Of a DNA stretch of 51,322 bases, positions 1,875-42,413 are shown one piece after another. This stretch comes from Spirochaetales bacterium. Lineage in GTDB: Bacteria; Spirochaetota; Spirochaetia; Treponematales; UBA12059. A model generated the notes under the pieces. That model did not search any database and had not been told where the DNA came from. It worked only from the letters and a program-made list of their open reading frames with translations. Numbering within the stretch: the first letter of the stretch is position 1; each line of letters opens with the position of its first letter. Position numbers and translations under genes: made by a program. Location: positions 1-51,322 of the forward strand of contig JAFGNN010000063.1 of the NCBI GenBank assembly GCA_016926955.1, in the 5' to 3' direction.

Positions 1875-2066
1875 GGGACGGAGCTCACAGGTGGCTGTCG
1901 AGCTGCCGCGAGGGACAGAGCTCACCTGCGGCTATCCCCTTGCCGTGAGGGACAGAGCTCTCACGCGACTGCCGATCCCCCGCAAGGGACAGAGCTCGCG
2001 CTCGCAACGTGCCGTGAGGGACAGAGCTCTCACACGACTGCCGATCCCCCGCAAGGGACAGCGCTC
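1875..2066 (+). repeat. Array of six GGGACAGAGCTC words, mostly 37-bp period
   Basis: Copies of the 12-mer start at 1875 (one mismatch), 1912, 1949, 1986, 2018 and 2055 (one mismatch). Start-to-start spacing is 37, 37, 37, 32 and 37 bp. The array lies in the 480-bp divergent region between clpP and the thioredoxin-like gene. The spacers are GC-rich. Each word contains the palindrome GAGCTC. Confidence 0.9.
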
Positions 2067-2073
2067 ACGCTCG
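1941..2073 (+). repeat. Two tandem copies of a 69-bp unit
   Basis: The blocks starting at 1941 and 2010 match over about 64 bases with roughly three differences. Each contains two of the GGGACAGAGCTC words. The array therefore grew at least partly by duplication of a two-word unit. Confidence 0.85.
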
Positions 2074-8524: not shown

Positions 8525-9544
8525 TCAGCGCTTCCGCACGTACTTCTGGATGTCGATGGCCACCGCCGCTACGATGATTATGCCTTTGACGATCTGCTGC
8601 CAGTAGGCCGAGACGCCGAGCACCACGAGCCCGTTGTTCAGCACCTCGAAGATGAGCACGCCCGTGATCATGCCCCCGACGGTCCCGATGCCGCCCGAGG
8701 TGGATACCCCGCCGATGACGCAGGCGGCGATCGCGTCGAGCTCGTACATCTGCCCGTAGTTGTTGGTCGCGCCGCCGGTGCGCGCCGCGAGCAGGGCTCC
8801 GGCAAGGCCGTAGAGCAAGCCGCCGAAGGCGTAGACGAGCAGGGTGTTCCGCCACACACTCACGCCGGAAACCACGGCGGCTTCCGGATTCCCGCCGATG
8901 GCGTAGACGTTCTTCCCGAGCCTGGTCCGGTTGAGAATGACGTAGGTGACCAAGGTGACCAAGGCCGCTATCAGGATCAGGTTTGGTATCGTAAGGGTGT
9001 CGCCGGTGCCGATGTTCGTGAAATCCTCGCGGAGCCCGCCGAGCGGCTGCGCGCCCATCGGCGGCCGATCGACGTAGAGCGAGACGGCGCCATAGACGAT
9101 GACCATCATGCCGAGGGTGGCGATGAAGGGCGGCACCTTGAGGAAGGCCACGACCGAGCCGTTGAGAAGCCCGACCAGCAGTCCGACGCCGAGCGCCGCC
9201 AGCACCGGCACGAGGAGCGGCAGCATCGGCAGGTCCTTGAAAAGCTTGCTCGCGTAGTCGTCGCGCTGGGCGAGCGAGGCGGCGACCACGGCCGCGAATC
9301 CGACGGTCCTTCCCGCGGAGAGGTCTGTCCCCCGCATGATCAGGATGCCGCCGACGCCGAGCGCGATGATGGCGCGCACCGAGGAGATGCGCAGGATGTT
9401 GACGAGGTTCTCGGGGTTGAGAAAGCTCGGCCTCGCGGCGCCGATCACGAGGACCAGTCCCAGCAGGACGAGGACGATTGCATTCTTGCTCGCCAGCTCG
9501 GCGATGCTCCGGCGCGGTCCCTCCGCGCGTGCCAGTGTGCTCAT
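8525..9544 (-). CDS. mglC: Galactose/methyl-galactoside ABC transporter permease
   Basis: The membrane subunit of a CUT2-type sugar importer, 339 residues and about ten hydrophobic segments. Recognisable family text includes LSAGRTVGFAAVVAA, PPFIATLGMM, NRTRLGKNVYAIGGN and the cytoplasmic GGVSTSGGIGTVGG. These match the MglC/RbsC family. The gene follows mglA by 21 bases. The naming as mglC rests on the MglB-like binding protein of the same operon. A GGGACAGACCT word falls inside the gene at 9321-9331 and encodes GTDL in a position where family members have similar residues, so it may be chance. Confidence 0.92.
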   Translation of the reverse strand: MSTLARAEGPRRSIAELASKNAIVLVLLGLVLVIGAARPSFLNPENLVNILRISSVRAIIALGVGGILIMRGTDLSAGRTVGFAAVVAASLAQRDDYASKLFKDLPMLPLLVPVLAALGVGLLVGLLNGSVVAFLKVPPFIATLGMMVIVYGAVSLYVDRPPMGAQPLGGLREDFTNIGTGDTLTIPNLILIAALVTLVTYVILNRTRLGKNVYAIGGNPEAAVVSGVSVWRNTLLVYAFGGLLYGLAGALLAARTGGATNNYGQMYELDAIAACVIGGVSTSGGIGTVGGMITGVLIFEVLNNGLVVLGVSAYWQQIVKGIIIVAAVAIDIQKYVRKR

Positions 9545-12432: not shown

Positions 12433-12500
12433 AATTCAGCACAGTTTCCCTGCGAAGCGGGGAAAGTGCAGACCGCTTGTCCTTCATGCCACGGGTTCGG

Positions 12501-12540
12501 ACATCGAGGGACATCGAGGGACATCGAGGGACATCGAGGG
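12501..12540 (+). repeat. Four tandem copies of ACATCGAGGG
   Basis: Four perfect 10-bp repeats run directly into the first GGGACAGACCTTG word of the adjacent array. The last GGG is shared, suggesting slippage growth from the edge of the word. Confidence 0.9.
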
Positions 12541-12684
12541 ACAGACCTTGGGGGGCAGCAGTCGAGGGACAGACCTTGCCAGTCGAGGGACAGACCTTGC
12601 GAGAATTCCAGGTGACGAGAGACAGACCTTGCGAGAATTCCAGGTGACGAGGGACAGACCTTGCCAGTTGGGGGACAGACCTTG
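12538..12684 (+). repeat. Array of six GGGACAGACCTTG words upstream of mglB
   Basis: Copies start at 12538, 12566, 12587, 12619 (one mismatch), 12651 and 12672; spacing is 28, 21, 32, 32 and 21 bp. A 32-bp unit beginning with the mismatch copy is duplicated. The 428-base spacer 12282-12709 holds this array, the 10-bp repeats, the candidate operator and the candidate mglB promoter, and no gene. Confidence 0.9.
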
Positions 12685-18512: not shown

Positions 18513-19055
18513 TCAGGGCCTACTCCGCTGCGACCGACCGTCGAGGAGCGCGACCGCGTGGGCAGGGAACAACAAGGCAAGCGCCTCCCCTATCGGTCCC
18601 GCGATATCGCAAAGGCCGCGTCGTCGTTGCGCCAGGGCCGAAGCCGCCCATTCCCGAGGTTGCACCACGAGTCCCGCCCGGACCGGGTTCGCGTCGATGT
18701 AGGCGAATAGGTCGACGAGCGCGCGGAAGCCATCGACTATCCAGGACATGAACCTATCGCCCCACACGTGTCCCCACCAGCCGGTCCGCCGGTTCAGACT
18801 CATCGCGAATACCCCGAGGATCCATTGCATGATCCTCGAGAGGCATTCGCCAGAACCCGGCCGGATCAGGAGATGCACATGGTTGCCCATTACGGTGAAG
18901 GTCTCGATCCGGAAGTCATACTTCCTACGCGCGCGCGCGACGGTCTCCATGAAAAGCCGCTTCGTCGTCTCATCTTCCAGGAGCCGCAGCTTCCCTACAA
19001 CCCGCGCGCAAACATGGTAGAGCGCGCCGTCCCTCAATACCCTCGAACGTCTCAT
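18513..19055 (-). CDS. REP-associated tyrosine transposase (RAYT, Y1_Tnp family)
   Basis: A single-strand DNA transposase-like protein of 180 residues, related to IS200/IS605 TnpA. It shows the YHVCARVV start of the fold, the metal-binding HUH motif in MGNHVHLLI (His59, His61), and YIDANPVRAGLV near residues 119-130, where Tyr119 is the likely nucleophile. RAYTs are usually single-copy domesticated transposases that act on REP hairpins scattered in the genome. Here the gene has no flanking partner gene or IS ends. On its upstream side are four copies of the GGGACAGA(C/G)C word in 190 bases, and on its downstream side an 8-bp inverted repeat. No strong ribosome binding site is visible. Confidence 0.9.
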   Translation of the reverse strand: MRRSRVLRDGALYHVCARVVGKLRLLEDETTKRLFMETVARARRKYDFRIETFTVMGNHVHLLIRPGSGECLSRIMQWILGVFAMSLNRRTGWWGHVWGDRFMSWIVDGFRALVDLFAYIDANPVRAGLVVQPREWAASALAQRRRGLCDIAGPIGEALALLFPAHAVALLDGRSQRSRP

Positions 19056-19381
19056 GCTACCCTATCGCTTCCAGGCGCGCCGTTGCTTGCGATTTTCGAG
19101 AAACACTCTTCCAGCGACAAGAATGACTGATCGAGATTCGCAGGTCAGATTCGCAGGTCTGTCCCCTTTTTGCACCCTCCGGGTTTCATGGGGCAGCGGC
19201 TTGTCCTCGGCCCCGTCCTGGACCAGTTCACCACCATCACGGGCCAGCTCTGTCCCTGATTCTGGGCCTGCTCTGTCCCTGATTCTGCAGTAATTGCATC
19301 ACAGTTCCGCAAGATAATGCTTGGCCACTAGGTCTGTCCCTGGATGCTTGTCCCTGAATCTGTTCGCGTCGATTCATATGA
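19056..19381. other. Gene-free region with a cluster of the short word
   Basis: These 326 bases hold minus-orientation words at 19155-19165, 19246-19256, 19270-19279 (ten-base form) and 19330-19340, several followed by CTGATTCTG-like text. I see no gene in it. Confidence 0.7.
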
Positions 19382-38698: not shown

Positions 38699-40111
38699 TC
38701 AGTCCGCGGCCCTTTCCCCGCCAGTCCGCCTCGCGGCGTCGGCGCCGAAAAGCGCGCGCAGAGCATCCTTCAGGGTCGCGGAACGCGACCAGGCCGCGGC
38801 ATTGCCGTTCCTCCCTTCGTCCTCCCGATCGCCGCCGTCCGCCGGCCCCACGAATTTCGGGAAGCCGAGCCCCGCCGCCGCGCGAGCGCGCGAAAGGAGC
38901 CGGCGCACGGGCCGCACTTCTCCGGCGAGGGAAAGCTCGCCCGCCATGGCCACGCCTTGCGGTAGCGCGATTCCGGAACGCGCCGACCAAAGTGCCGCCG
39001 CTATGGCCAGGTCTGCCCCCGGCTCCGCCACCTTCACTCCGCCGGCCACATTGACGTAGAGATCCTGGTCGGAGAATCGCATGCCAGCCCAGCGCTCCAG
39101 TATGGCCGCGATCCGCGCGACGCGCTGCGAGTCGACCCGATCAGCGTAGACGCGCGTCAGTGAAGCCTTGGCCGGCGCCACCAAGGCCTGCACTTCCACA
39201 AGCAGGCAACGGCTCCCTTCCCACAAGGCGGCCACCGCGGCGCCGGCCGGAAGCGCGCCGTCGCGGCGCGTCAGGAACAAGCTCGACGGATCGGGCAGCT
39301 CCGCCAAGCCTTTCGCGCCCATCGTGAAGATGCCGAGCTCGTCCGTCGAACCGAAACGGTTTTTCGCGGCACGGAGGAAGCGGGCGTCGGCGTCGTTCTG
39401 CTCGAAGTAGAGCACCGTGTCCACCAGATGCTCCACCGCCTTGGGCCCCGCGATGGTCCCTTCCTTCGTGACGTGCGCCACGACGAAAAGCGCCGCTCCG
39501 TGGGTCTTCGCCCAATCGGAAAGGGCCGCAACCCCGTACTTGATCTGGTTGACGGTGCCCGGGACGGCGCCGGCTTCCTCGCTGCGCAGGGTCTGGGCCG
39601 AGTCCGCGACCACGAGCACGGGTTTTACCCGCTCGAGCGTGGCCAGGATGGACTCGACCTCCCCCGTGCAGAGCACCTCGAGAGTATCCCGCGAAAGCCC
39701 CAGGCGATCGGCTCGAAGCCTGAGCTGTGCCGCGCTTTCCTCGCCGGAGACATACAGGACCCTGCCCTTGGTACGGACGAGCGCGGCCAACTGGAGCAGC
39801 AGGGTGCTTTTTCCGATACCCGGCTCTCCGCCCACCAGCACCGCGGAACCGGGCATCACGCCTCCGCCGAGCACCCGATCGAGCTCTCCTATCCCCGAAG
39901 GGAATCGTTCCCCCTCTCCAGGGTCGATAGCCGCGAGGGGCACGGAAAAATGCCCGAGCCCGGATCCCGAGCCTTGCGGCCGAGCATCGGCCACGGAGGT
40001 CTCGCGAAAGGTGTTCCATTCGCCGCAGACGGGACAGCGCCCGAGCCACTTGGGCTCGTCATGGCCGCACGAGGAACAACGAAAAACGCTGGTTTTCTTC
40101 TTCACGTCCAC
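38699..40111 (-). CDS. radA: DNA repair protein RadA
   Basis: A DnaB-like/RecA-like ATPase that helps extend D-loops in recombination. The 470-residue protein has a four-cysteine zinc finger (Cys12, 15, 26, 29), Walker A GEPGIGKST with Lys101, the RadA-specific KNRFGST and a C-terminal Lon-like domain. The GTG at 40111 is one choice. A second GTG at 40105 would give MKKKTSVFRC, closer to the usual N-terminus. On the minus strand TGCTAATAT lies just before these codons and could be an extended -10, giving a leaderless or nearly leaderless mRNA. No ribosome binding site is visible. The 42-bp repeat array lies immediately upstream. Confidence 0.93.
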   Translation of the reverse strand: MDVKKKTSVFRCSSCGHDEPKWLGRCPVCGEWNTFRETSVADARPQGSGSGLGHFSVPLAAIDPGEGERFPSGIGELDRVLGGGVMPGSAVLVGGEPGIGKSTLLLQLAALVRTKGRVLYVSGEESAAQLRLRADRLGLSRDTLEVLCTGEVESILATLERVKPVLVVADSAQTLRSEEAGAVPGTVNQIKYGVAALSDWAKTHGAALFVVAHVTKEGTIAGPKAVEHLVDTVLYFEQNDADARFLRAAKNRFGSTDELGIFTMGAKGLAELPDPSSLFLTRRDGALPAGAAVAALWEGSRCLLVEVQALVAPAKASLTRVYADRVDSQRVARIAAILERWAGMRFSDQDLYVNVAGGVKVAEPGADLAIAAALWSARSGIALPQGVAMAGELSLAGEVRPVRRLLSRARAAAGLGFPKFVGPADGGDREDEGRNGNAAAWSRSATLKDALRALFGADAARRTGGERAAD

Positions 40112-40120
40112 ATATTAGCA
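40112..40120 (-). promoter_or_regulatory. Candidate extended -10 of radA
   Basis: The minus strand reads TGCTAATAT directly before the GTG start. A transcript from here would have almost no leader. I see no clear -35. Confidence 0.3.
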
Positions 40121-40179
40121 GAAAACGGCATGACGCTTGCGCCAATCGCCCATCGAACGCACCGCCGAAAGGGACAGGA

Positions 40180-40358
40180 GGGACAGACCTCGTCATCGGG
40201 GACAGACCTTCAGTCGCGCCAGGGACAGACCTCATCATCGGGGACAGACCTTCAGTCGCGCCAGGGACAGACCTCGTCATCGGAGACAGACCTCCAGTCG
40301 CGCCAGGGACAGACCTCGCCATCGGGGACAGACCTTCGGTCACGCCAGGGACAGACCT
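40180..40358 (+). repeat. Four-unit 42-bp array with nine GGGACAGACCT words
   Basis: Words start at 40180, 40199, 40222, 40241, 40264, 40283 (one mismatch), 40306, 40325 and 40348. The spacing alternates exactly 19 and 23 bp, so the unit is 42 bp with two words per unit. The region between radA and the next gene is 316 bases; it holds this array and a terminator, and no gene. Confidence 0.93.
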
Positions 40359-40376
40359 CGGCCGCCCGACCCGGTC

Positions 40377-40408
40377 AAAAAAAAGGGGGAGGGCTCACGC
40401 CCTCCCCC
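40377..40408 (-). terminator. Intrinsic terminator of the vWA lipoprotein gene
   Basis: On the minus strand a perfect 10-bp stem (GGGGGAGGGC and its complement) with a 4-base loop is followed by eight T, 20 bases after the stop codon. Confidence 0.92.
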
Positions 40409-40427
40409 CATCCTTTCGGTGTTTCCG

Positions 40428-42236
40428 CTACAAACCGAGTTCCGGCTCGATGCGTGCCCGCGTCACCGCGAGCACTTCGGCGGTTCCAACACGGACGAGC
40501 TTCAGGAAAACCTCAAAGCGGCCATCGCGTTCCACCAAGCTGCCGACGACAAGCACTTCGGCGCCGAGCAGGCCGCCGACCCTTGCTGCGGCGGATTCGT
40601 CCACGAGCCCCGAAAGCTGCAACTCCAGCTCTTCAAGTATCTTCTGGAGGTTCGCCCGGTCCACTATGGTGAAGAGCCTGCGCTCTGATGCAGCGAGGAG
40701 TATCCGCTCGGAGAAGTATTCCGCGTTGGCCGCGAGCTTCCCGTCGGATGCGGTCGCGGGCAAGATCGCCACCGGCGTGTCCGCCCCTATCCGGACGGTC
40801 GAATAGTCCACCAGATTCGAGAGCGCCTCCCCGAACAGCTTGCCGAGCGTCGCGTCCTTGGTCTCCGCCTCGATGCGCTTCGCCTCGAAGTAGTCGTCAT
40901 CCTTCGCCTCTACCGGCACGTCCGAGAGGGCCGAAAGGTCCTCCTTCACGAAGCGGATGACGATGGTCTCGAGCTTGTCCGCGGTGAAGTTGGACCCGGT
41001 GTGGTGCGATACCGACCCCTCGACGCCGCCCTCGCTTTCGCCGCGCTCGCCGTAGGTCAGGAAGATGTAGCGACCGCCTGAATAATGGGAGATCTGCCTC
41101 AGGACATACTCGCCGTCGACGTCGAGGCCGCCCGTACCGATGGTATGGAACTTGATGCCCTTCTCGCGCGCCCTGCGCATCGAGCTCACGTAGTCGAAAT
41201 CGCGCTTGTAGCCGAGCTGGGCGGTCGCGTCGGTGACCACGAAAGCCAGTCGAACACCGTCGTCGTTCCACCTCATCCGCGTCACGGCGTCCTCGAGCGC
41301 CGCTTCCAGGTCCTCCGGATAATCGCCGCCGCCTGACGCATGGACAAGAGCGAGCGATTTACGGAACGACTCGAGGTCCTCCGTGAACGGAACCACGCGG
41401 GTCACGTATTCGTCCCCTTCGTCCTTGTAGAGCACCATGCCGAAGCGCACCGCGGGACGCGGACTTATCGAGGCTATGTTGTCGTGGATGATTTCGATGG
41501 TGGCCTTGAGGCGCTCGATCTCTCCGCCCATCGAGCCGGTCGTGTCCATCACGAAGAGCACGTCGAGCGGGAGAGGGGAAGGAACGTTCCGGGGGGAAGG
41601 CAACGCGGCGGCCACCGAGCGCGGACCATCCGCCTTCACCGTGCCAGCCCAATCGCCGGAATCCGACTCCACCGACACATCCCAGCCGTCCGCACCGCCA
41701 TAGGCCGCGGGGTAGAGCCGGAACCGTCCGTCGGGAAGCGTCACGCCGCGGTCGACCACCTTCCCGTCGATGCGGACCGTCACAATGGCGTTCGCGACAG
41801 CCTTGCCGTCGGCGTCGCTCACCTCGAGGGTTACGCGCCCGGAAACGTCGAGCTCACGATGCGGCACATAACCGTACTCATCGAGAAAGCCGAGAAAATA
41901 GTTGTACTGTTCGTTGTCGTCGGAAAATCCGGCCTTGAGGCCCGACGAGCTCGGTGGAGCGTAGGCGTCCTCCCACGCTCCGGCGGGAGCGCCTCCGGTC
42001 GCCTCCCCCCGGCTCGATGCCTCGGAGGATTTCGCGGCAGGGGACGGAGACGGCAGGAAGCCGAGCGAGGGCGCGGCTTCCGATTCCGTGAACAAGCCGT
42101 CGCTCCGGCTGTCCCGATCCTCCTCGTACGCCGCGGCGACGGGTGGCGGCGCTCCGGAGCAGGCGACGAGCGCGGCGGACAGCGCGAGCGCGATGATCGC
42201 CGTCGGCACGGCTTTTCCGTTCAGCTTGATTCCCAT
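40428..42236 (-). CDS. Lipoprotein with von Willebrand A domain and CsgG-like C-terminus
   Basis: A 602-residue envelope protein. A lipoprotein signal ends in LVAC (Cys26). A serine/proline-rich linker and a beta-sandwich-like stretch (residues 128-200) follow. The vWA domain starts at PLDVLFVMDTTGSMGGEIERL with MIDAS residues Asp231, Thr233 and Ser235. From about residue 450 it has text such as LFTIVDRANLQKILEELELQLSGLVDESAAARVGGLLGAEVLVVGSLV (block at residues 523-570), which matches CsgG/FlgO-type curli-secretion-like domains found in spirochaetes and others. GGAGG lies four bases before the ATG at 42236. The open frame continues upstream but is not needed. The function is unknown; surface assembly or adhesion is plausible. 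Confidence 0.8.
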   Translation of the reverse strand: MGIKLNGKAVPTAIIALALSAALVACSGAPPPVAAAYEEDRDSRSDGLFTESEAAPSLGFLPSPSPAAKSSEASSRGEATGGAPAGAWEDAYAPPSSSGLKAGFSDDNEQYNYFLGFLDEYGYVPHRELDVSGRVTLEVSDADGKAVANAIVTVRIDGKVVDRGVTLPDGRFRLYPAAYGGADGWDVSVESDSGDWAGTVKADGPRSVAAALPSPRNVPSPLPLDVLFVMDTTGSMGGEIERLKATIEIIHDNIASISPRPAVRFGMVLYKDEGDEYVTRVVPFTEDLESFRKSLALVHASGGGDYPEDLEAALEDAVTRMRWNDDGVRLAFVVTDATAQLGYKRDFDYVSSMRRAREKGIKFHTIGTGGLDVDGEYVLRQISHYSGGRYIFLTYGERGESEGGVEGSVSHHTGSNFTADKLETIVIRFVKEDLSALSDVPVEAKDDDYFEAKRIEAETKDATLGKLFGEALSNLVDYSTVRIGADTPVAILPATASDGKLAANAEYFSERILLAASERRLFTIVDRANLQKILEELELQLSGLVDESAAARVGGLLGAEVLVVGSLVERDGRFEVFLKLVRVGTAEVLAVTRARIEPELGL

Positions 42237-42413
42237 GTTCCCTCCGGCCGGCTCGACCCTTCGCCGCCGGGTTCTCGGCCCGGATTCCACCCGCTCGGGT
42301 ACGGTCGGCGCTTTCAGTATAGCGCGTCAGGCGTCCCGCGCACGCGGATCTGCAGGCCCGCCGCCGATGGGAGGGCTTGCCCCGATCACCGCAAAGCTTT
42401 ATTCATATATGCC

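Follow-up and report, generated by a model that had tools for sequence, protein, structure and literature searches.

Between the DNA-repair gene radA and the co-directional gene upstream of it lie nine 11-bp words, all reading GGGACAGACCT save one GAGACAGACCT (at 40283), in the window studied here, that is, the whole 51,322-bp contig (Table 1). Their starts, at 40180, 40199, 40222, 40241, 40264, 40283, 40306, 40325 and 40348, give spacings of 19, 23, 19, 23, 19, 23, 19 and 23 bp, so that the perfect alternation described in the first-pass annotation is borne out, as it is by the 42-bp period that TRF reports. Since the repeated 42-bp unit holds two words, the alternation is one fact, a tandem two-word unit, and no independent regularity. 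The units differ from one another by few substitutions; the assembly comprises 94 contigs (98% complete, 0.7% contamination), and the number of units could be misassembled, though these substitutions distinguish them.

The array does not stand directly before the start codon, as had been claimed, but 68 bp upstream of the radA GTG at 40111, with its words on the strand opposite to radA, and this 68-bp gap is conserved in three species. Within it, TGC-TAATAT likely fits an extended -10 element of radA, judging from the aligned sequences, in which the hexamer of the relatives reads TAGTAT; a consensus scan of the radA upstream region found no sigma-70 consensus pair and no full promoter. At 40103-40117 the TAATAT abuts the GTG with an in-frame stop inside, an arrangement kept in two congeners that looks leaderless, and the radA transcript would be leaderless or nearly so. 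On the far side the array is bounded by the intrinsic terminator of the upstream gene, and a similar G/C-rich inverted repeat stands at this position in the sister species (G001). With a terminator on one side and a conserved putative -10 on the other, the array therefore fills the gap between the terminator of the upstream gene and the probable radA promoter.

Table 1. Positions of the repeat arrays and neighbouring features in the window.
Feature	Position	Strand	Basis
Array of sister word GGGACAGAGCT, spacings 37, 37, 37, 32, 37	1875..2068	+	
Second array of GGGACAGACCT, spacings 28, 21, 32, 32, 21	12538..12682	+	
RAYT-type Y1/HUH transposase gene	18513..19055	-	PF01797, 45.8 bits (cut-off 23)
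Words on the strand of the RAYT gene, upstream of it	19155..19340	-	
radA (sms), start GTG 40111 or in-frame GTG 40105	38699..40111	-	ORF; TIGR00416, 454 bits, above cut-off
Putative -10, TGC-TAATAT, directly before radA start	40112..40117	-	Alignment, block conserved in three species
Truncated tenth word GGGACAG, just ahead of the array	40171..40177	+	Read directly
42-bp tandem array, ~4.3 units, nine GGGACAGACCT words at 19/23 bp	40179..40360	+	TRF: period 42, 4.3 copies, 93% matches
Intrinsic terminator of gene upstream of radA, bounding the array on its far side	40384..40409	-	
Gene with VWA and CsgG-like domains, upstream of radA, co-directional	40428..42290	-	

The words at radA belong to a larger family. 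With up to one mismatch, the window holds 42 matches against 0.96 expected and a maximum of 4 in dinucleotide shuffles, and 28 of the 55 exact copies of GGGACAGACCT in the 3.38-Mb genome lie on this contig, which makes up 1.5% of it. After copies within 500 bp were collapsed, 13 of 33 sites still fell here (0.5 expected, in a binomial calculation that treats sites as independent). The genome-wide word figures come from pattern searches; some counts are matches to GGGACAGANC(T), which does not apply to the spacing statistics. A 10-bp tandem repeat of GGACATCGAG (12499-12548; 4.5 perfect copies) leads directly into the second word array.

The same contig carries a RAYT gene, a domesticated transposase gene. 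Its product has an HVH motif and a YIDANPVRAG motif with the tyrosine, its sole match in the PDB is a weak one to E. coli TnpA-REP (4er8), and with 76.9 bits it lies just under the cut-off of 80 of NCBIfam NF047646, which several of its relatives in the family exceed.

Clustering around RAYT genes recurs in related genomes. In the sister species, 47 copies of GGGACAGACCT collapse to 34 sites, 15 of them no more than 38 kb from the orthologous RAYT gene against 0.76 expected, a binomial figure for which the sites were again treated as independent and the radius was picked after viewing the data. There, too, 88 of 144 copies of the sister word GGGACAGAGCT lie on a 110-kb contig (C1) that carries another RAYT gene, at 58 kb, with GGGACAGAGCT arrays of up to 16 words at spacings of 13-21 bp. 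In a second genus (G015), all nine word pairs are found on two contigs, in stretches around RAYT genes. Across the family, 21 of 27 RAYT genes have a word on their own strand no more than 150 bp upstream, and one of the 27 has an inverted word no more than 150 bp downstream. Furthermore, the variant of the word largely tracks the RAYT clade: ACC words go with the C82/C19 RAYTs, and the RAYTs of the other large clade mostly have AGC words. An ACC word does lie beside an otherwise AGC-clade RAYT in the third species (G002, C531). On contig C16 of the sister species, GGGACAGACCT words are present although the RAYT gene there is preceded by GGGACACACC, which has six copies immediately upstream of that gene, on the opposite strand and at intervals of about 29 bp (109745-109889); GGGACACACC was absent from three further contigs that were checked.

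Some of the copies may not be mobile repeats. A rough gene call places about 10 of 36 words inside genes. Two words of the window lie within reading frames or at their start: one, at 9321-9331, encodes GTDL in a putative permease, and the other, at 2306-2316, encodes GLSL in the putative signal peptide of a lipoprotein and is conserved in the sister species.

At the radA site itself, the sister species has five words spaced 25, 45, 25 and 46 bp, which make up 2.2 copies of a 71-bp unit of two words, and the third species has two decayed words. Thus, the 42-bp unit is absent from both congeners, and the two species with alternating arrays share the alternation but not the spacing. Independent tandem amplification would be expected to leave differing units at one site; a phased operator would not. 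Aligned with the sister species, some words of the window are orthologous, some replaced without a change in length and some in unalignable gaps, and from this comparison the length of a mobile unit, as an insertion of a defined segment, could not be fixed. Taken with the clustering of the word at RAYT genes, the absence of the unit from the congeners supports the earlier suggestion of a recent tandem amplification of a RAYT-linked two-word repeat, and in all we consider it quite probable that the array is a tandem amplification, specific to this lineage, of two words from a repeat family clustered at the RAYT gene.

The other suggestion of the first-pass annotation, a helically phased array of protein-binding sites that regulates radA, is considerably less credible and in our judgement improbable. 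It draws on the 42-bp unit being close to four helical turns, on a location upstream of the conserved putative radA promoter, and on the fact that each of the three species of the genus has one or more words here, intact or decayed. However, neither spacing nor number is conserved, with 25/45 bp in the sister species and two decayed words in the third, so that close relatives show variable, non-phased spacing or almost no array. In the arrays of six contigs the spacing ranges from 13 to 59 bp and is often regular, several arrays alternating (13, 31, 42; 42, 21; 25, 45), and 71 array spacings show no periodicity of 10, 10.5 or 11 bp (Rayleigh p ~0.9). In addition, the word is found at numerous unrelated sites, and it is missing upstream of radA at the 25 loci from outside the genus, on which ground a general radA operator was rejected. 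We found no evidence that regular array spacing controls radA; a role in radA control is not needed to explain the array, which is probably unimportant for radA itself.

Plain replication slippage or unequal exchange of random sequence, with no link to a transposase, is a known route to tandem direct repeats and would suit units that differ so little, and we regard it as unlikely, if slightly less so than an operator: slippage alone could account for the tandem step, but it does not explain why one word should be present at dozens of sites that, in two species, cluster around RAYT genes. A transcribed structured RNA or an array of hairpins like those of REPs and BIMEs, suggested by the hairpins and clusters that REPs often form (PMC2817692), is hardly to be expected here, as both DNA strands and the minus-strand RNA fold worse than 200 of 200 shuffles (z +2.45 to +2.9) and Rfam gives no match. 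Even more remote is a 14-residue repeat peptide, for which 42 bp would supply 14 codons. Open frames do run through the array on both strands, but they continue into radA or across a terminator, and neither length and frame nor the array itself is kept, the 71-bp unit of the sister species being no multiple of three and the third species having no array.

How far does the family resemble known repeat systems? As in REP/RAYT systems (REPtrons, BIMEs and REPINs; PMC2817692, PMC3116915, PMC6006769), there is a gene for a RAYT-type HUH/Y1 transposase, short repeats flank it and are scattered around it, each RAYT has its own variant of the word, and clusters are made of repeated modules. Nor is the cloud of words new in kind, because an earlier proposal had new REPs arise close to the rayt gene in a RAYT-dependent manner (PMC2817692) and REPMa and REPMb were reported to be concentrated near two tnpA genes (PMC8266576). 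Of the earlier label “REP-like”, the link to a transposase holds but the palindromy does not: the words are not palindromic, form no hairpin and lack GTAG/GTGG, there being no GT(A/G)G head in GGGACAGACCT. Whereas BIMEs and REPINs have inverted neighbours, words up to 60 bp apart in the arrays of six contigs are direct, 163 pairs being on the same strand and 3 on opposite strands. Moreover, the word stands only upstream of the RAYT gene, instead of two inverted repeats flanking it. A second comparison is offered by TIRtrons, or TIRYTs, in which RAYT-like transposases are accompanied by non-REP repeats carrying GGGGWSAS (PMC3733652; subclass 2.1 of PMC6006769). Words preceded by G (GGGGACAG), such as that at 40199, fit this motif, the others being preceded by A, and TIR repeats may, like the words here, be dimeric or clustered. 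In contrast to TIRtrons, no inverted copy was seen downstream of the gene, so that terminal inverted repeats do not stand on both sides, and the RAYT protein of the window has no Pfam match for a C-terminal helix-turn-helix. Our literature search for the word itself returned unrelated papers only, within a scope that did not extend to the study of RAYT groups by Bertels and colleagues (2017), where this variant may be described.

For the amplification of a RAYT-linked two-word unit, we envisage the following as the likely course. The RAYT would recognise the word, and copying would be favoured near the RAYT gene, where the words are seen to be concentrated. An ancestral word or word pair would have settled in the space that separates the terminator of the upstream gene from the radA promoter, and the interval between words would then have been amplified in head-to-tail orientation. 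For this step, the RAYT could have nicked one word and transferred the strand to another, or the 11-bp direct repeats could have undergone ordinary slippage or unequal exchange. The length of whichever unit was amplified would account for the alternation of 19 and 23 bp as well as for a period close to a whole number of helical turns.

How short repeats are dispersed by RAYT transposases has yet to be settled (PMC8266576). Although this currently seems speculative and rather less likely than the alternatives to it, we tentatively hypothesize that the substrate of this spirochaete RAYT lineage is a non-palindromic 11-bp word, used in direct orientation only, and that the RAYT multiplies it mainly within tens of kb of its own gene, giving rise to word-bounded tandem arrays through nick-primed copying, unlike the mobility of REPINs. 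A hairpin-free, direct-only 11-bp word, with dense arrays of many periods and a sharp cloud for each transposase gene, would make a system in which the word, the range of its spread and the tandem step could be tested separately.
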